A stretch of 22,935 bases of DNA from a virus. The notes below the pieces were generated by a model. It had not been told where the DNA came from, ran no database searches, and saw nothing but the letters and a program-made list of their open reading frames with translations. This document shows, piece by piece, positions 4,573-22,447 of this stretch; position 1 is the first letter of the stretch, and every line of letters starts with the position of its first letter. The translations under genes and the position numbers were made by a program. Location of the stretch: positions 1 to 22,935 of the IMG/VR virus record IMGVR_UViG_3300033064_006336, one strand, 5' to 3'.

Positions 4573-4581
4573 TATAAATAG
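4573..4581 (-). promoter_or_regulatory. CTATTTATA late-promoter-like element upstream of portal
   Basis: The coding strand reads CTATTTATA followed by AATAAAAC, 17 bases before the portal ATG, in the 30-base gap after the terminase stop. The overlapping sequence also contains TATAAATA, the exact T4 late promoter -10 consensus, in the same orientation. Confidence 0.6.
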
Positions 4582-4585
4582 TAGG

Positions 4586-5746
4586 TTATCCCAATAGCCA
4601 TGTAAGATCCTCTTGGCCACCAGGTGTTTCCATAAGATACGGATTATTGTGCATTGGAGCAACGTTATAAACACCTTGATTTCTTTGATTAAGATTTACA
4701 AAAGAGTTCATGGTAGCTCTAGAGAGATCCATTCCTTGCTGTTTCATTCTAATTGCTGTGTCTCTTACGTATAGTGCTGTAGCAAAAGACATGATTAAAT
4801 CATCATTATATCCAGATTGTGCTTGTGCTTTGCCATTTCTCCATATGAATACTCGCATTTCTGCTAACAATCTTTTTGATTGTACTACAACTGATCTTTC
4901 TCGTATGTATTCTGTCATCTTGGCAATAACAAGTGGTCTAGTTTTTAAAGACATTGTAAAACCAGGTACTAATTTATCTCTTTCAAATTTAGCCATGTAT
5001 GATTCAACTGTTTCAGTATCTGATCTTGATGAGTAGTATAAGTTTTTATATTCTCTCGATATTACTTGTTCGATTGTTGACCATCCTATGTTTGCATTCT
5101 CTATTACAAGTAGTGCATCGCAGTACTCTGTTGCTATTCCTACTAATACATTTCCATATTCTTTAGGTGATATTTTTCCTTTATACTCTGCAACTTGTGT
5201 ACATGTTTCAATATCAAATACATGAAATCCAGAATAATCGGTAGAATCTCCTCTTGCGACATCGGCAACAACCATATATGATCTTGCATAATCTGGTGAT
5301 TCCCATATCCAAAGATTTCCATCTACTCCTCTTCTTTCTATTGGATCTTTTACATATGTTTCTTCATAGAAAGTCATATTTTCAACCTCTATTACAGTAT
5401 CTCCAGATGACATGAAATCGCAGTTGTGTGATACCACCCCATCTGCAATATACAAACTATCCTCCCCTACATCTGTCAAGTCGTACAGTACCGAATCCTT
5501 TTCTTCAGTTTTTAATTTTAATACGAATACATTTGGCAGTAGTTCCTGACCTTCGTATAAATCTTTTGCAAAGGTCTCCTTTCCTTTAATTACGAATTTA
5601 TGATCTTCTGATGCTTCTAGGTATTTGTTATTTGAGAAGCTTATTTGAACTACTTTAGATTTTGTAGTTTTTCTCATTCCTGAGAAATTTTTAAATCCTG
5701 AAGGTGTTTGTATTTGGTACCTGGTATTTTGTTTAAATTGAATCAT
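4586..5746 (-). CDS. terL: Terminase large subunit, C-terminal half: C-intein plus RNase H-like nuclease
   Basis: Residues 1-108 are the C-terminal part of a split intein and residues 109-386 are the terminase nuclease domain, which cuts packaged DNA. Intein marks are a block B-like SEDHKF (46-51), a block F-like region LYDLTDVGEDSLYIADG (87-103) and the splice end VVSHN (104-108), followed by Cys109 as the +1 nucleophile. The extein opens CDFMSSGDTVIE, matching the start of this domain in T4-like terminases. Its RNase H-like metal ligands are visible as Asp162 (VADVARGD), Glu216 (VIENANIG) and Asp315/Asp316 (SGYNDDLIMSFA). Joined to residues 1-246 of the other half it would give a 524-residue terminase, a normal length. 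The start overlaps the endonuclease gene by 14 bases, with no promoter element in front, so it is probably translated from the same message. Confidence 0.95.
   Translation of the reverse strand: MIQFKQNTRYQIQTPSGFKNFSGMRKTTKSKVVQISFSNNKYLEASEDHKFVIKGKETFAKDLYEGQELLPNVFVLKLKTEEKDSVLYDLTDVGEDSLYIADGVVSHNCDFMSSGDTVIEVENMTFYEETYVKDPIERRGVDGNLWIWESPDYARSYMVVADVARGDSTDYSGFHVFDIETCTQVAEYKGKISPKEYGNVLVGIATEYCDALLVIENANIGWSTIEQVISREYKNLYYSSRSDTETVESYMAKFERDKLVPGFTMSLKTRPLVIAKMTEYIRERSVVVQSKRLLAEMRVFIWRNGKAQAQSGYNDDLIMSFATALYVRDTAIRMKQQGMDLSRATMNSFVNLNQRNQGVYNVAPMHNNPYLMETPGGQEDLTWLLG
5423..5746 (-). other. C-intein of a split terminase intein (108 residues)
   Basis: This segment encodes the intein residues of the C-terminal gene, ending at Asn108, with Cys as the first extein residue. 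A short N-piece plus a long C-piece of this size matches the atypical split of the AceL-TerL intein, which has an N-part of about 25 and a C-part of about 104 residues. Most natural split inteins instead have about 100 residues in the N-part. Confidence 0.92.
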
Positions 5747-6467
5747 ATTTAATTCTTATAAATTTACATTGAAGCAGTTCTCTTATCTGCTTCTCTCTTT
5801 CCACATCTTGTCGTTTTAGGTTTCCTTCTGAATCAAAGTGATGTTTTTCGTCAAATTCTATGGCTATATTATTTATTGGATCATATCCATCTAAAAAATA
5901 TCCTAATCCACTTACAAAATATTCTCCTCCATTTTCTGCATGCATAAATTTTAGGTTGTTAATCCTTCCATACTCTTCTATATGCTTTATACTATCTCTA
6001 TTGTATCTTGGAGCCAGTTGGCCATTTTGCTGCTTCAAGTACTCCAGTGTTGACAACCTCATTTTTCTTTTAGTTTCTTCTGTATGTGGTTTTCCTAATT
6101 GATTCCTTTTATAGTCAGGACAGTGTCTACAGTAATTTGTCCATGTATACTTTTTTCCACAACTACACCTAAGTGCTTCTAAATTTAGATTATGCTCTAC
6201 AATAAATCTAATTCTATGTGAAAAATTCCAAAAGGTTTTATACGAATTCTGTGATTGGAAGGCTTGTTGTAGTATCTGGGTGTGGTGCATTATTGATTTA
6301 TAGAGTTTTGGATCTTCCTTTATCATTGTTCTGTTCTTAGCTTTTCCTAAAAACTTCTCAAAATAATTATTCTTTCTTAGTATTTCCTGTACATTTACAT
6401 ACGGCATTACCTCTAATCCCTCTAATTTATCTTTTACTGTATCCCAGTGTTGTTTTGTGTTGTTCAT
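5733..6467 (-). CDS. Free-standing homing endonuclease, Vsr/EDxHD-like, inside the split terminase
   Basis: This 244-residue protein lies between the two terminase halves. In order it shows a helical N-terminal region, a small zinc ribbon (CSCG at 101-104 and CRHC at 113-116), a NUMOD3 DNA-binding motif GKPHTEETKRKMRLS (125-139), and a C-terminal nuclease domain. That domain has Asp193 and Asp196 in GYFLDGYD, then IAIEFDEKHH (201-210), then an Arg/Asp-rich helix and FIRIKYD. The pattern resembles the Vsr-like/EDxHD nucleases found as free-standing endonucleases in 'fractured genes' with split inteins. It would cut terminase alleles lacking the insertion and so spread the cassette. A CTATTTATA element sits 21 bases before the ATG, overlapping the end of the N-terminal terminase gene. 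The nuclease call is confident; the target site at the terminase intein position is inferred. Confidence 0.85.
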   Translation of the reverse strand: MNNTKQHWDTVKDKLEGLEVMPYVNVQEILRKNNYFEKFLGKAKNRTMIKEDPKLYKSIMHHTQILQQAFQSQNSYKTFWNFSHRIRFIVEHNLNLEALRCSCGKKYTWTNYCRHCPDYKRNQLGKPHTEETKRKMRLSTLEYLKQQNGQLAPRYNRDSIKHIEEYGRINNLKFMHAENGGEYFVSGLGYFLDGYDPINNIAIEFDEKHHFDSEGNLKRQDVEREKQIRELLQCKFIRIKYDSI

Positions 6468-6487
6468 ATATCAAGAGTGTGTCTTTA

Positions 6488-7336
6488 CTATAAATAGTCG
6501 CATTCTTGCATTCCATCATACAAATCCTCTAATTTTATTGTTTTTATCTCTCCAGTTAAAGTATCTTTAACAACTACTTCACTATTTCCCCACAGACAAT
6601 CACATTCCTGTGCTGCATGCTTTTCTCCTAATTGCCTTGTTTGCTCATCTCTCCAATCTTGTTGTCTTTCAGGATGAACATCCCATTTTAATTTAATAGG
6701 AACGAATCCATTCTCTCCTGCTTCAGCTCTTTCCCATGTTTTATGAAACCAGTTACCTATACCATTTGGAGTTGAAAGTGCCATACATTGTCCCCCTGTT
6801 GCTAGGGTTTGTTGAGCTGCTGTAAATGTTTCTTCAATGTTTTCAATAAATGCAGCCTCATCTATTAGTAGAAGTGATACTGCTTCTGAACGAGCTGCAT
6901 CTGAATTGGATGATTTAGCTGTTATTTTAGAACCATTCTTAAGCCTCATTGATAGCTTATTCTTTTCTACGAAGGGAAGTTGTAGCCATTTTGGTAGATT
7001 CTCATACATGAAAATCGTTTTGGTTACAAGGTTTCTAGCTGTAGCTTGAGTAATTGCTAATGCTAAAACGTTTTTATCTTTGTGAAAGATCATTAACCAA
7101 AGCGCATATGCTGAGGCTAATGTTGATATTCCTAACTGTCTTGACTTTAGGGTTATTAGCATTTTTTCATCTCTGAATAAATGTAGTACTCCTTCTTGAA
7201 ATGGGTATAGGTTGAATAAGATTCTACCTCTTGTTGGATGTTGGATGTAGCAATACTTCTTCATGAAGTACGCTGGATCTTTTGCACATTTTACGTACTC
7301 CTGTGCAACTATTTGTTTTATATCTGGTTGTGACAT
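6488..7336 (-). CDS. terL: Terminase large subunit, N-terminal half: packaging ATPase plus N-intein
   Basis: Residues 1-246 are the ATPase motor of a T4 gp17-like large terminase. The deviant Walker A reads SRQLGIST (65-72), Walker B is SLLLIDEAAF (154-163) with Glu160 as the likely catalytic base, and the coupling motif is ALSTPNG (186-192). At residue 246 the terminase sequence breaks after AAQECD, and Cys247 begins a 36-residue N-intein: CLWGNSEVVV resembles block A, and IKTIKLEDLYDG is the usual next strand and helix. The gene stops there, and the nuclease domain is supplied by a separate gene about 740 bases downstream. Splicing in trans would restore ...QECD-CDFM.... It is the first gene after a strong terminator and carries a promoter-like ATATTTATA 18 bases before its ATG. 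Confidence 0.95.
   Translation of the reverse strand: MSQPDIKQIVAQEYVKCAKDPAYFMKKYCYIQHPTRGRILFNLYPFQEGVLHLFRDEKMLITLKSRQLGISTLASAYALWLMIFHKDKNVLALAITQATARNLVTKTIFMYENLPKWLQLPFVEKNKLSMRLKNGSKITAKSSNSDAARSEAVSLLLIDEAAFIENIEETFTAAQQTLATGGQCMALSTPNGIGNWFHKTWERAEAGENGFVPIKLKWDVHPERQQDWRDEQTRQLGEKHAAQECDCLWGNSEVVVKDTLTGEIKTIKLEDLYDGMQECDYL
6489..6497 (-). promoter_or_regulatory. CTATTTATA element overlapping the end of the N-intein
   Basis: The nine bases, read with the next base as TAT-TTA-TAG after a C, encode the last two residues (Tyr-Leu) and the stop of the N-intein half. They lie 21 bases before the endonuclease ATG. This would give the homing endonuclease its own late transcript, which could also carry the C-intein/nuclease half of terminase. 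Confidence 0.5.
6491..6598 (-). other. N-intein of a split terminase intein (36 residues)
   Basis: The segment runs from Cys247 to Leu282 of the N-terminal terminase gene. Cys as residue 1 and the GNSEVVV strand fit intein block A. Its last six residues, QECDYL, repeat the extein sequence QECD-C that precedes the splice site, which is unexpected in an intein. Confidence 0.9.
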
Positions 7337-7354
7337 ACTATATACTTATATATC

Positions 7355-7363
7355 TATAAATAT
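7355..7363 (-). promoter_or_regulatory. Promoter-like ATATTTATA element upstream of terminase
   Basis: One base different from the CTATTTATA element, 18 bases before the ATG of the terminase ATPase half and directly after the terminator of the preceding operon. A promoter is needed here because of that terminator. Confidence 0.5.
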
Positions 7364-8692: not shown

Positions 8693-8701
8693 TATAAATA
8701 G
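8693..8701 (-). promoter_or_regulatory. CTATTTATA late-promoter-like element
   Basis: CTATTTATA followed by AACAAAAA on the coding strand, 17 bases before the ATG of the 418-residue gene, in a 30-base gap. The spacing is identical to that at the portal and 284-residue genes. Confidence 0.6.
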
Positions 8702-17447: not shown

Positions 17448-18230
17448 CTAAAGTTTGATAGTAGTTGGATATGATGTGTACTTTGGCTCTGTTGTTGGAT
17501 GATCTATTTCATATAGTCTGTAAATTAATTTGAATAATTCAAAGTTTTTTTCTATATCGTCAATTACTTTTAATTCCCATCCTTTGCCCTGAATCTTTTT
17601 ACCTGCTTTATCTTCTCCTCGAGTAGCTGCTTTTAGCCAAAGGATTGCTGTTCTATCAATTTTAACTCCCTTTGCTTCTTCAATTGATTTTGCATAAGCT
17701 GCTAGTTGTAGATCGTATGATTTATGTAAATGGTTTGATGTCTTAAAATCTATAAGCCAAGTCTCTCCGTTTATCTTTACAACTATATCGGCTGTTCCAG
17801 CATACTTGTGAATGTCTGAGTATGTAAATTCTTCTGTGAATATTAGTTCAGGTTTGGCTAATGCCCAAAACTCTTTAAACTTCATAATCATTCCCCATAC
17901 TAATTCATTGTACCGGGCATTACCATAATCATCCATCCAACTAACTTCTTTACCTTCTAGTAATTCTTCAATTGCATTATGAACTTGAGTACCTTCATCT
18001 CCGGCTCTTCTCATTATAATATCTGAATTGTGTCCTACATCTTTCAACCAAGATTCAAAGAACTTATTCTTTGGCATGTGTTGTAAAATTGAAGTAACTG
18101 AAGGGTAGTACACTCCTCCTGATCTTTCATAGCATCTGCGATCAAGAAAATTTACCTGCTTAAGTGTTGCGTCAAATTTCAAATTCCTTTTCTTATGCTC
18201 TGTTAGTATGTTATTACCTTTCTGTAACAT
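17448..18230 (-). CDS. PD-(D/E)XK exonuclease-like protein, Cas4/RecB nuclease family
   Basis: The 260-residue protein shows the family motifs in order: a His in GTQVHNAIEE (80-89), Glu133/Glu134 in FTEEFTY, GTADIVV (145-151; Asp148), LIDFKTS (159-165; Asp161 and Lys163) and LQLAAYA (174-180; Gln175, Tyr179). No Fe-S cysteine set is seen, unlike true Cas4. Phages of this type use such nucleases in replication and recombination, and the gene lies in the same transcription direction as the primase. Originally it probably sat directly behind the promoter element at 19113-19121; a homing-endonuclease cassette now separates them. Its immediate leader (TTAAATAAAGA before the ATG) repeats the sequence following that promoter. 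Confidence 0.85.
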   Translation of the reverse strand: MLQKGNNILTEHKKRNLKFDATLKQVNFLDRRCYERSGGVYYPSVTSILQHMPKNKFFESWLKDVGHNSDIIMRRAGDEGTQVHNAIEELLEGKEVSWMDDYGNARYNELVWGMIMKFKEFWALAKPELIFTEEFTYSDIHKYAGTADIVVKINGETWLIDFKTSNHLHKSYDLQLAAYAKSIEEAKGVKIDRTAILWLKAATRGEDKAGKKIQGKGWELKVIDDIEKNFELFKLIYRLYEIDHPTTEPKYTSYPTTIKL

Positions 18231-18286: not shown

Positions 18287-19009
18287 TTAGTTTTTGTATT
18301 GCCAAATAAATCCTCCTACTGATTTTATCCTCCCTGTTAGGCAGGATGAGATACCTCCTGCACTTACTCCAATAGCCTTACTAGCTTCCAATATTGCTGA
18401 CCATTCTGCTATATTTACGCCTTCTTTGGATAGTTGTATAATAGGCTTTCTGCACTTTTGCCCTGCTGCAACCCTATCTCTACTACCCTCTGCTCTCGTA
18501 CCTATTCCAGGTATGTTGCCTACTCCTACTACTGCATACTTCCAAATAAATCCTCCTGCCGATAGTTGCCGATTTATTAAACATGCCGATATGCTATCTT
18601 TTCGTATGTCTAAGGTTTCTGCTGCTTTCTTTATTGAAGGCCACTTTTTTATAAATGCTCCATTTTTTTCGTATTGATTTACCTCTATATATCGCTTTTT
18701 AATACTATCCTCAGACATTTTCCCTGACCTGTCCCCAGTTTTTGTCAACTTACAATTAAGTCCATCAGGCCCTAACACTACGTAGTAGTCTTGCCAGTAC
18801 CGCTCTCTCTTGTTTAGGTTCTCAACAAAGCACTCCTCTATAGTTACAAAAGTGTGCATATTCCAGCCATACTTTGCTAGTGAGTTATACAATCTTCGTT
18901 GACCTTGGCAATCTAGCCTTCTATACCTCTCCACTCTCTTATCCATATTAACAGTCTGTCCAATATAAATTTTTCCACTCGGACTTGCTATTTTATAAAT
19001 CCCTATCAT
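18287..19009 (-). CDS. GIY-YIG homing endonuclease with two NUMOD1 repeats
   Basis: This 240-residue protein opens with a canonical GIY-YIG domain: GIYKI (3-7), IYIGQT (14-19), conserved Arg in NMDKRVERYR (21-30), and the metal-binding Glu69 in NKRERYW, then Asn85. A short NUMOD3-like basic segment (SGKMSEDSIKKRY, 95-107) follows, and then two NUMOD1 DNA-binding repeats at about 110-158 and 189-238, each ending in GGFIW-K/Q-Y. It is inserted between the primase and nuclease genes, both of which are intact, so it acts as a free-standing mobile endonuclease rather than an intron- or intein-borne one. By eye its base composition is less AT-rich than its neighbours, consistent with recent transfer. 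Confidence 0.93.
   Translation of the reverse strand: MIGIYKIASPSGKIYIGQTVNMDKRVERYRRLDCQGQRRLYNSLAKYGWNMHTFVTIEECFVENLNKRERYWQDYYVVLGPDGLNCKLTKTGDRSGKMSEDSIKKRYIEVNQYEKNGAFIKKWPSIKKAAETLDIRKDSISACLINRQLSAGGFIWKYAVVGVGNIPGIGTRAEGSRDRVAAGQKCRKPIIQLSKEGVNIAEWSAILEASKAIGVSAGGISSCLTGRIKSVGGFIWQYKN
18302..18317. repeat. 16-base direct repeat coding the NUMOD1 GGFIW core (copy A)
   Basis: CCAAATAAATCCTCCT is identical to 18542-18557, exactly 240 bases apart. Both copies encode the end of a NUMOD1 repeat, so this marks an internal duplication in the endonuclease gene. Confidence 0.8.
18542..18557. repeat. 16-base direct repeat coding the NUMOD1 GGFIW core (copy B)
   Basis: Second exact copy of the repeat at 18302-18317, at the end of the first NUMOD1 unit. 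Confidence 0.8.
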
Positions 19010-19158: not shown

Positions 19159-20079
19159 TTATCTTAATTTATATCTTAATAACTTTCCTAAGTCCATTTC
19201 TTCGGCTTGTTGAATACGGTGTGTAAAAACGACAAAGCCTTCTTCACTTGGATCTTTCTCCTCCATGTCTACTAGGTATACCCTTTTCCCCATGTTTAAG
19301 AATTGCTCCACGTATTGTAAAGCTTTCTTAAGTGCATCTTTATCCAATGCTATGTACACATCTTCAACTGCACTAGTTGCTATTTTTTTTATTAATGAAT
19401 TTGATAGTGATTTTCCTAATATTGGTATTGCATTTCTCTTAACCGCTATTGCATCAAATACCCCCTCTACCAATATAATTGGTTGAGACCAGTTAATTAA
19501 GTTTTCAAATCCTATTATATCTTTTGAACACTCTGGGTTTCTGTATTTGTGATAAGCGTCTTCAAATGTTCTTGCTACAAAAAAGTTTAACTGATTGTTT
19601 TCTCCGTATGAAGGCACTACTATTCGTCCTGTGTATTGTCCTGAGGTGCAGTATCCTATGTTGTATTTTAAGAAATCTCTATCTGTAAATCCTCTTTTGT
19701 ACAAATAGTTTCTTACTTTATTTGCTATAATAGAAGTGGTTGTTGCTGTGTAAAGTGGTTGGAATTCTTTTGGAAGTTCTACTGTAGATGCTGGTGTATA
19801 TCCTACCTCATCTCCTTTTCTTACGTACTTTAGGATTTCATATGCCTGCTCTGCAGGTACTTGAAGTTGCTTTAGAAGAGATTTTATTGTTCGTCCTTTA
19901 AATCCACATACCCAACACTCAAATGGATTTTGTCCATTCTCATCTGTATGGAGATTTACTTCTAGTTTTGGTTTGTGGTGATTGCATTTAGGACAGTTAA
20001 ATGCATAGTTTTCTCTTGCCCTTTTGTGGGACTTTCCTAATACATTTTCTATAAAACCTAATAGTATATTGCTACTCAT
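19159..20079 (-). CDS. DNA primase, DnaG/T4 gp61-like
   Basis: A 306-residue primase with an N-terminal zinc-binding domain (CPKC at 29-32 and CWVC at 55-58) and a C-terminal TOPRIM domain: LVEGVFDA (203-210, catalytic Glu205) and ALDKD (244-248; Asp246 and Asp248). The linker between them contains GYCTSGQYTGRIVVPSY, typical of the DnaG core. It makes RNA primers for lagging-strand synthesis. The short length and absence of a helicase domain match phage gp61-type primases working with a separate helicase, not seen in this window. It starts after a terminator, with an AT-rich gap that must hold its own promoter. Its stop is followed by the CTATTTATA element and the GIY-YIG cassette. Confidence 0.9.
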   Translation of the reverse strand: MSSNILLGFIENVLGKSHKRARENYAFNCPKCNHHKPKLEVNLHTDENGQNPFECWVCGFKGRTIKSLLKQLQVPAEQAYEILKYVRKGDEVGYTPASTVELPKEFQPLYTATTTSIIANKVRNYLYKRGFTDRDFLKYNIGYCTSGQYTGRIVVPSYGENNQLNFFVARTFEDAYHKYRNPECSKDIIGFENLINWSQPIILVEGVFDAIAVKRNAIPILGKSLSNSLIKKIATSAVEDVYIALDKDALKKALQYVEQFLNMGKRVYLVDMEEKDPSEEGFVVFTHRIQQAEEMDLGKLLRYKLR

Positions 20080-21308: not shown

Positions 21309-22010
21309 TTACCAATATCCGCTAAAGTTCTTTTCTCCTCCTAATGATTTCCAGTACCTTCCAATATGACATCCCCAGTAGTTCGGAGATAATTTGTTCT
21401 TTTCTGTAGCACAGTTATGGCGAGCTGCAAAAGATGCTCTTGCTTTTGGATCATCTATCTTAACTGATAGTCCTGTAGTGTCTCCAAATTGTACTTTCTT
21501 TACTTTTTTTGTTTTAGGATTCATTACATAAACGTAGAATTTTTTAGTTCCACCTCTTTTAGGTTTTCCTAATTTAACTTTCTCTCCGTGATAATCTGCT
21601 TCTTGAAGACTTTTCCAATTCTCAAGAGCCTTCATGTCGTATACTTGTTTTTCATTATCGTATCCACACTTATGACAAAGGGCTGGGTTGTTGTCTTGAG
21701 GTGTTGCTTCCCAGTCGTGTTTGCATTTTTTACAAATAACCTCTTCACCTACTTGCATTGGAAGGTCTAGTGGAACTTCTTGTCCTTCAAACATTCCATA
21801 CTCACCTATATTTGTTTCTTCTAACAATACTCTATCATTTTCACATAACTGTAAATAACCGTCTCTATGAAGAGTTCTTGCCTCAGTGAATAGTTCCAAG
21901 AATCCTTTAGACGAATACCTGTAGATATTCTCAGATAAAGGCAGTTCGTGCTTTAAATGGTAGTTTAAGCCAGGTGTTGTATCAACTAATAGGTTAAGTA
22001 GTTTTATCAT
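21309..22010 (-). CDS. Zinc-ribbon protein with conserved phage C-terminal domain (233 aa)
   Basis: Residues 93-115 form a Cys4 zinc ribbon (CKKC at 93-96 and CHKC at 112-115). The last 95 residues form a separate basic domain with KLGKPKRGGTKKFYVYV, FGDTTGLSVK, ASFAARHNC and YWGCHIGRYW. I have seen this type at the C-termini of many phage virion or protease-linked proteins; I think it corresponds to DUF5872 but am not certain. Between them lies SLQE-A (137/138), a prohead-protease-like site exactly at the domain border. The N-terminus (MIKLLNLLVDTTPG) is hydrophobic but too short to call a signal. The start overlaps the upstream stop (ATGA). Confidence 0.65.
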   Translation of the reverse strand: MIKLLNLLVDTTPGLNYHLKHELPLSENIYRYSSKGFLELFTEARTLHRDGYLQLCENDRVLLEETNIGEYGMFEGQEVPLDLPMQVGEEVICKKCKHDWEATPQDNNPALCHKCGYDNEKQVYDMKALENWKSLQEADYHGEKVKLGKPKRGGTKKFYVYVMNPKTKKVKKVQFGDTTGLSVKIDDPKARASFAARHNCATEKNKLSPNYWGCHIGRYWKSLGGEKNFSGYW

Positions 22011-22447
22011 AGAAAATCTTTCTTAAAGAAGCGGCCTGAAATATTATCATTAAAGTAGTTAGAACCTGGTTCAATTACCCCTTTCATATACAAGTATTTA
22101 TCTTCGTAGTATGTTAGCTGTTTCTTTGTTGGTACAAACATAACAATTTCTCTCGTAAATTCCAACTGTTTGCCTTGTTTTATTAATTGCTTTATTTCTG
22201 GATGAGAACCATAGTATGTTTTCCAATCTGTTTCTTTCTTTACAGTTTTCTTTTTTGATAACCTTTTATCTGTTTGTAAAGCTAGTTCTTTTTTACCTAA
22301 AGCTTTCGTTGTAACTGAAATAAGTTGTTTTCTTCCTATGTATTTTCTGCCACTTGCAATATGAGTAACTTCGTAGATAAATCCAAAAGGAGTAATATCT
22401 CCCATGTCCTCTATACTGTTAATTTGCTTTTGTTTATATTTCCACAT
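22007..22447 (-). CDS. GIY-YIG-fold phage endonuclease-like protein (146 aa)
   Basis: The protein has GFIYEVTH (22-29) and KYIGRKQ (35-41), the two strands of a GIY-YIG domain with Arg39, followed by a Lys-rich insertion, WKTYYGS (75-81), a Glu115 in LTYYEDKYL as the likely metal ligand, and NYFNDNISG (130-138). No NUMOD or other DNA-binding module is attached, so the domain stands alone. Such single-domain proteins are common in T4-like phages and may act on phage or host DNA; mobility is not indicated. It begins 13 bases after the fibre-like gene and overlaps the next gene by four bases. Confidence 0.75.
   Translation of the reverse strand: MWKYKQKQINSIEDMGDITPFGFIYEVTHIASGRKYIGRKQLISVTTKALGKKELALQTDKRLSKKKTVKKETDWKTYYGSHPEIKQLIKQGKQLEFTREIVMFVPTKKQLTYYEDKYLYMKGVIEPGSNYFNDNISGRFFKKDFL

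Follow-up and report, generated by a model that had tools for sequence, protein, structure and literature searches.

Fractured genes, in which split inteins occur together with a free-standing Vsr-related endonuclease, were reportedly described by Dassa and co-workers in 2009 (NAR). Atypical split inteins of large terminase (TerL) genes have a short N-terminal fragment (IntN). It comprises 37 residues in GOS-TerL, where it can be trimmed to 27, and 25 residues in AceL-TerL (PMC11766414). An intein-split TerL is also annotated in the GenBank record of Aeromonas phage PX29, which lists gp17 as "putative N-intein" and "GIY-YIG endonuclease and C-intein". The homing endonuclease I-TevI of phage T4 represses itself; a site resembling its homing site in 15/20 positions lies over its own late promoter (PMC2988022). 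Natural split inteins are widely used tools, and their origin is unsettled.

Organization of the split terminase locus

We analyzed 22,935 nucleotides of the IMG/VR virus record IMGVR_UViG_3300033064_006336 (positions 1 to 22,935, referred to as the window). In this sequence TerL is encoded by two separate genes, and a homing endonuclease gene (HEG) lies between them. A slash marks the point of insertion or the end of the intein.

7336-6488, minus strand: TerL N-half, 246-residue N-extein, 36-residue intein start and stop codon
6599-7336, minus strand: TerL N-extein, ATPase half, 246 residues, ending in AAQECD (Terminase_6N; boundary from intein-less relatives)
6491-6598, minus strand: IntN, 36 residues, Cys1 first, CLWGNSEVVVKDTLTGEIKTIKLEDLYDGMQECDYL (TAG stop at 6490-6488)
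6518-6598, minus strand: probable functional IntN core, CLWGN...EDLY, 27 residues (from shorter homologues and the GOS and AceL lengths)
6596-6610, minus strand: insertion site CAGGAATGTGAT/TGT (QECD/C)
6494-6508, minus strand: echo of the insertion site, CAAGAATGCGACTAT, encoding QECDY at the IntN tail, one mismatch to CARGARTGYGAYTGY
6489-6496, minus strand: TATTTATA box, 21 nt ahead of the HEG start; shares bases with the echo and with the IntN stop
6472-6486, plus strand: inverted copy of the echo, CAAGAGTGTGTCTTT, two mismatches (window-wide pattern search)
5733-6467, minus strand: free-standing HEG, probably EDxHD/Vsr-like, 244 residues
5736-6008, minus strand: putative nuclease domain of the HEG, residues 154-244 (VIA-align to 3r3p and 1cw0)
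6120-6167, minus strand: Cys cluster CxC...CxxC of the HEG, residues 101-116 (four Cys invariant in 20 homologues)
5746-4586, minus strand: TerL C-half, 108-residue intein end MIQFKQ...DGVVSHN and 278-residue C-extein CDFMSS...
5423-5746, minus strand: intein C-fragment (IntC), 108 residues, ending in SHN (match to 6dsl; Asn codon at 5423-5425)
4589-5422, minus strand: TerL C-extein, nuclease half, 278 residues, Cys+1 first (codon at 5420-5422; stop at 4588-4586; 3c6a, 3cpe)
2678-2685, 4573-4580, 6489-6496, 7355-7362 and 8693-8700, minus strand: TATTTATA boxes, 17-21 nt before five gene starts, including TerL and the HEG

The original prediction described a TerL that is split after QECD, with a 36-residue intein start, a 108-residue intein end (SHN/C) and an endonuclease between them. 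This layout was confirmed, with exact empty sites present in relatives that are 94-97% identical. N- and C-extein abut with zero bases between them in many intein-less TerL genes (the best 80 IMG/VR relatives and Flavobacterium phage immuto, L082), and the immuto TerL runs in a single frame across QECD/CDF. The boundaries between intein and exteins are fixed because such intein-less relatives represent natural empty sites. The exteins sum up to 246 + 278 = 524 residues, exactly the ligated length that had been proposed. The HEG occupies nearly the whole gap between the two intein fragments and its end overlaps the start of the C-half by 14 nt.

By its Pfam match the N-half is the ATPase part of a T4-type terminase (Terminase_6N, E 5.9e-15), and the C-half matches nuclease domains of T4-type terminases (3c6a, 3cpe). 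In each of 11 related contigs of up to 176 kb, exactly one match to the N-half and one to the C-half was found; a second, intact TerL did not appear in any of these contigs, which are perhaps incomplete. The phage can probably package its DNA only if the two halves are spliced in trans.

The split intein

IntC is similar to CatC (6dsl), a consensus sequence of atypical split inteins, with an E-value of 3.1e-14 as a single sequence and 9.6e-26 as a profile, and the C-half passes the intein_Cterm model TIGR01443 (17.6 bits, cut-off 15.6). Residues of class 1 inteins are in place: C1 is found in the window, and S46, H49 and SHN/C are invariant in eight relatives. An AlphaFold model (pLDDT 83) of the natural contiguous homologue L003 shows the HINT fold, and its top Foldseek hits are inteins, including Cat (E about 1e-7). 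The proposed AceL-TerL-type atypical split intein is supported by the CatC matches and by this model, in which the contiguous homologue stands in for the N/C pair of the window. The insertion site is presumably the same as in AceL-TerL, judging from the CatC match and the AceL flanks.

The same IntN piece is present in L002, L063, L096, L099, L103 and many others. Searched alone against the PDB, IntN retrieved designed trefoils only, by chance, and an IntC profile search of bacterial genomes gave no match. There are also homologues of IntN that end at 28-33 residues and lack the QECDYL tail; these last residues of the 36-residue IntN are probably not needed by the intein. Comparison of the window with L002 gave dN/dS values of 0.06 for IntC and 0.12 for the HEG, and both are therefore under purifying selection. 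Sequence, fold and selection agree, and we infer that the window intein splices.

According to the proposed mechanism, TerL would be a fractured gene, of which the N-half bears Cys1 and the short IntN and the C-half the long IntC ending in His-Asn, followed by Cys+1. The two polypeptides would associate, the intein fragments would fold into a single HINT domain, and class-1 splicing would ligate the 524-residue TerL, as suggested by sequence, homology and selection.

We hold this reading of the broken TerL, a split intein plus a HEG and leaving aside the operator discussed below, with high confidence. The halves might instead act as a non-covalent two-subunit terminase with a dead intein, like the "genes-in-pieces" ribonucleotide reductase of T4-like phages, and working enzymes that remain split are on record (Friedrich 2007, cited in PMC3322345; PMC10448857). 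However, the intein shows no variation in its catalytic residues, IntC evolves under purifying selection, split inteins stay intact after loss of the HEG, and the extein ends fit the empty gene exactly, which makes a dead intein very improbable. An RNA intron at the break, an assembly artefact or a pseudogene is hardly credible as an explanation. Introns do occur in the TerL genes of other phages (PMC3322345; PMC10448857), but the space between the intein fragments is nearly all HEG and the same layout is seen in dozens of independent contigs. An intron instead of an intein was also searched for directly, and no Rfam family reached threshold within the window.

The endonuclease gene in the break

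In the 20 HEG homologues the Cys cluster (CxC, CxxC) is accompanied by a C-terminal domain in which E, D and H are conserved. From its sequence, the Cys cluster likely binds zinc and DNA. In the AlphaFold model of the HEG product (85.7), residues 154-244 lie near I-Bth0305I and Vsr by VIA-align, with Z 7.2 over 78 residues (I-Bth0305I, 3r3p) and Z 7.2 over 83 residues (Vsr, 1cw0); these values are moderate, as Z below 8 can mean merely a common arrangement. The HEG sequence had no match in the PDB, including I-Bth0305I, and Foldseek of the model gave no match below 0.001. Weak DUF559, MTES_1575 and PvuRts1I-like matches appeared in single homologues. The predicted Vsr/EDxHD-like endonuclease is thus borne out by likeness of fold, without a significant match by sequence or Foldseek, and we regard the assignment as good but not firm. 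Four pairs gave dN/dS values of 0.08-0.16 for the HEG and a more distant pair gave 0.28, so that the gene is under purifying selection. By analogy, the nuclease would cut intein-less terL near QECD/CDF, and repair would copy intein and HEG into the break. Its nuclease domain also recurs at numerous further positions of large phage genomes (L104-L109, L238-L269 and the Prevotella Lak phages H102-H107).

The trees of intein and HEG hold the same groups, namely the window with L002; L100, L063, L099, L096 and L128; and L103, L131, L132 and L133. The TerL tree conflicts with this grouping: the window and L002 are surrounded by empty alleles, whereas L100, L131, L132 and L123 are placed at a great distance, in a tree with some long branches. 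This conflict indicates that intein and HEG travel as one unit between terminases. Between L078 and L064, synonymous divergence is 0.09 in the HEG and 0.26 in IntN versus 0.01-0.02 in the flanking exteins, as if the insert had been exchanged.

Loss of the endonuclease gene and contiguous alleles

After removal of duplicates, a mechanical classification of alleles at the insertion site, with sampling biased by the queries, gave 52 empty sites, 42 split alleles with HEG, 5 split alleles with a partial HEG, 3 split alleles without HEG and 3 contiguous inteins. L003-L005 represent one contiguous lineage and L173 another. The near-identical phages L145 and L146 differ by the HEG, which L146 lacks; their IntC is identical and their TerL is 98.5-98.8% identical. 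At the L146 junction, found in four contigs, the end of IntN meets the final bases of the HEG (AAATTTTATAGAATAAAGATATG). All that L142 retains of the HEG is its final portion. The IntN stop of L123 leads straight into TTTATAAGACTTAAGTATGAT, a HEG 3' end of the window type (TTTATAAGAATTAAATATGAT); this junction fits a deletion between short TTTATAA repeats, and L123 is a single stop codon away from a contiguous intein. L003 has the length of L123 at the junction, with TTA for TAA and AGA for ATG, and reads through as one protein.

The intein tree groups L003 with the window, L002 and L123, from which the HEG is deleted, in a well-supported clade (99/89); the branch of L003 beside the window is weak (83/45). 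We take L003 to be a re-fused contiguous intein, on the basis of this weakly placed branch and of the equal length rather than of strong DNA identity. HEGs would accordingly often be deleted, some lineages keeping the bare split intein and one having fused it back to a contiguous form; the series of alleles is seen in the sequences and its order is our interpretation. Alleles at a single insertion site include empty sites, split forms that carry a HEG, a decaying HEG or none, and contiguous inteins, so that birth and repair of a split intein become traceable in sequence and testable.

An echo of the insertion site and a promoter-like box

The tail of the window IntN, CAAGAATGCGACTAT (QECDY), repeats the insertion site CAGGAATGTGATTGT (QECDC) over 15 bp of DNA. 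Its single mismatch to CARGARTGYGAYTGY was equalled by 0/500 shuffles and 0/387 background stretches. In 26/33 related loci, the stretch from IntN codon 28 to the start of the HEG contains a match to CARGARTGYGAYTGY with at most three mismatches, and with 0-2 mismatches in all but L096. Each of these matches was reached by at most 3/500 shuffles and, among about 370 background stretches from its own locus, by no more than 4. The remaining 7/33 loci have more than three mismatches. The loci are often related, so that independent lineages are fewer than these counts, and the statistics are flattering and exploratory because the pattern was drawn up after seeing the leaders. Independent checks came from a window-wide search and from HEGs at other places. 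With up to two mismatches, the pattern occurs in the window only at the insertion site, at the echo and as the inverted copy just before the HEG. It is absent at about 40 places with related HEGs elsewhere, except for one weak three-mismatch match in two contigs. By strict identity of each leader to its own whole extein, the best match starts at the site in 15/37 loci, the window not among these, where about 0.8 would be expected at random (an estimate); a clearer test came from the degenerate site written at codon level, compared with shuffles and background stretches. The echo is read as IntN tail in the group of the window and follows the IntN stop in most others. After loss of the HEG it is gone in L146, decayed in L003 (five mismatches) and kept in L123 and L158. 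A repeated QECD peculiar to the window was ruled out by the occurrence of the echo across lineages.

The TATTTATA box occurs 11 times on both strands of the window compared to 3.7 expected copies, and it is also found ahead of TerL, portal and other genes. In immuto, 9/11 copies precede an annotated gene by at most 40 nt, where 0.48 would be expected. Judging from its position, the box probably belongs to the promoters of this phage group. The exact box is present in 10/29 HEG leaders, and the order of box and echo differs between lineages. A homing-site-like sequence is located at the putative HEG promoter, as assigned from the box. A candidate RNA hairpin that would hide the HEG start had a z of -0.5 in the window, too weak to support it there, and of -2.2 to -4.8 in relatives, with little covariation (one pair only).

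By analogy to T4 I-TevI, the echo beside the box of the HEG could function as an operator by which the nuclease keeps its own expression in check. We put the chance of such self-limitation at about even. The operator is our preferred hypothesis for the echo because the HEG box overlaps it and I-TevI represses itself via a homing-like site; a relic of HEG capture comes as a close second. In the wider and more tentative form of the hypothesis, which has slightly less than an even chance, the IntN tail codons (QECDYL and stop) would be a nuclease-target decoy with a promoter box, the endonuclease would be self-repressing, and loss of the HEG would free the split intein to persist or to fuse back. 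If true, the end of a split intein would double as a control switch, and the life cycle of natural split inteins would be complete. From an echo beside a promoter-like box one would predict that the homing nuclease inside the intein limits itself, a prediction accessible to direct tests. The echo also suggests that part of the so-called IntN at such loci is regulatory DNA and not intein.

The echo may well be a mere relic of the initial capture of the HEG, through short homology to the target as in collaborative homing, although we rate this below even. A HEG pre-adapted to the intein site could bring such a flank, and related HEGs at other loci are without echo. In 13 of the listed loci, however, the echo lies past the IntN stop and before the HEG, in apparently mostly non-coding sequence, and still has 0-1 mismatches. 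It has been kept although synonymous sites are near saturation between many of these phages, and in the window it overlaps the TATTTATA box, all of which argues against a mere relic. The decay of the echo to five mismatches in L003 would be in line with L003 being the ancestral state before insertion of the HEG, and contiguous mini-inteins are common. This order is nevertheless unlikely, as L003 belongs to the 99/89 clade with the window, L002 and L123, nested in a clade otherwise bearing the HEG, and as its linker has the length of the L123 linker and retains QExxYL. Re-fusion thus remains our interpretation of L003.

Other inteins and homing genes

A GIY-YIG/NUMOD homing endonuclease gene was found at 18287-19009 (minus strand) of the window, between primase (19159-20079) and exonuclease (17448-18230). 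It is a free-standing insertion, since primase and exonuclease are adjacent in immuto with one base between them. At 22007-22447 (minus strand) the window encodes a SegE-like GIY-YIG protein (Pfam 1.8e-25). Its PHROG label "NAD synthetase", which is also given to an immuto gene in the same region, looks wrong. TerL genes with inteins at two different sites occur in the viral contigs L232, L233 and L234 and in L083 (Vibrio phage VP-1). In L113, L114, L115 and L117 (T4-like phages of E. coli, Yersinia and Pseudomonas) TerL is split elsewhere, near N-extein residue 162; a TnsA-like nuclease domain is located at this residue-162 split in HY03 and kaaroe.

Comparison with known systems

The original prediction regarded the arrangement as rare and unusually complete. 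With 42 distinct split alleles carrying a HEG, it is not rare in T4-like phages, and its completeness is matched in dozens of such loci, the PX29 record already annotating a split gp17. No description of the echo with its box, of the scars left by HEG deletion or of the re-fused allele was found in the literature examined, a scope to which Dassa et al. (2009) does not belong.

The locus shares with AceL-TerL, GOS-TerL and Cat-TerL the large terminase as host, a short IntN with a long IntC, and Cys+1, with fragments of 25/104 residues in AceL, 37/115 in GOS and 36/108 here (PMC11766414). In contrast to AceL- and GOS-TerL it has a distinct sequence, and kinship was judged via the CatC consensus. 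As in the fractured genes reported by Dassa et al. (2009), the gene of a conserved phage enzyme is broken by a split intein with a HEG between the fragments; here the host is a terminase, and the present analysis contributes the allelic series with loss of the HEG and re-fusion, as well as the site echo. The cultured T4-like phages Aeromonas PX29, Providencia PSTRCR_127, Serratia 92A1 and Vibrio K469 also have an intein-split TerL with an endonuclease at the break, but their endonuclease is of the GIY-YIG type and is fused to one half in PX29 and K469. E. coli phage HY03 differs from the window in a TerL split at another site and a TnsA-like nuclease. With T4 I-TevI the locus has in common a homing-site-like sequence at the endonuclease's own promoter (PMC2988022), whereas I-TevI combines a group I intron with a GIY-YIG nuclease and the window a split intein with an EDxHD-like one and a putative operator. 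Fractured genes with split inteins, atypical TerL split inteins (PMC11766414) and split TerL genes in GenBank are already known, and the window is a further member.
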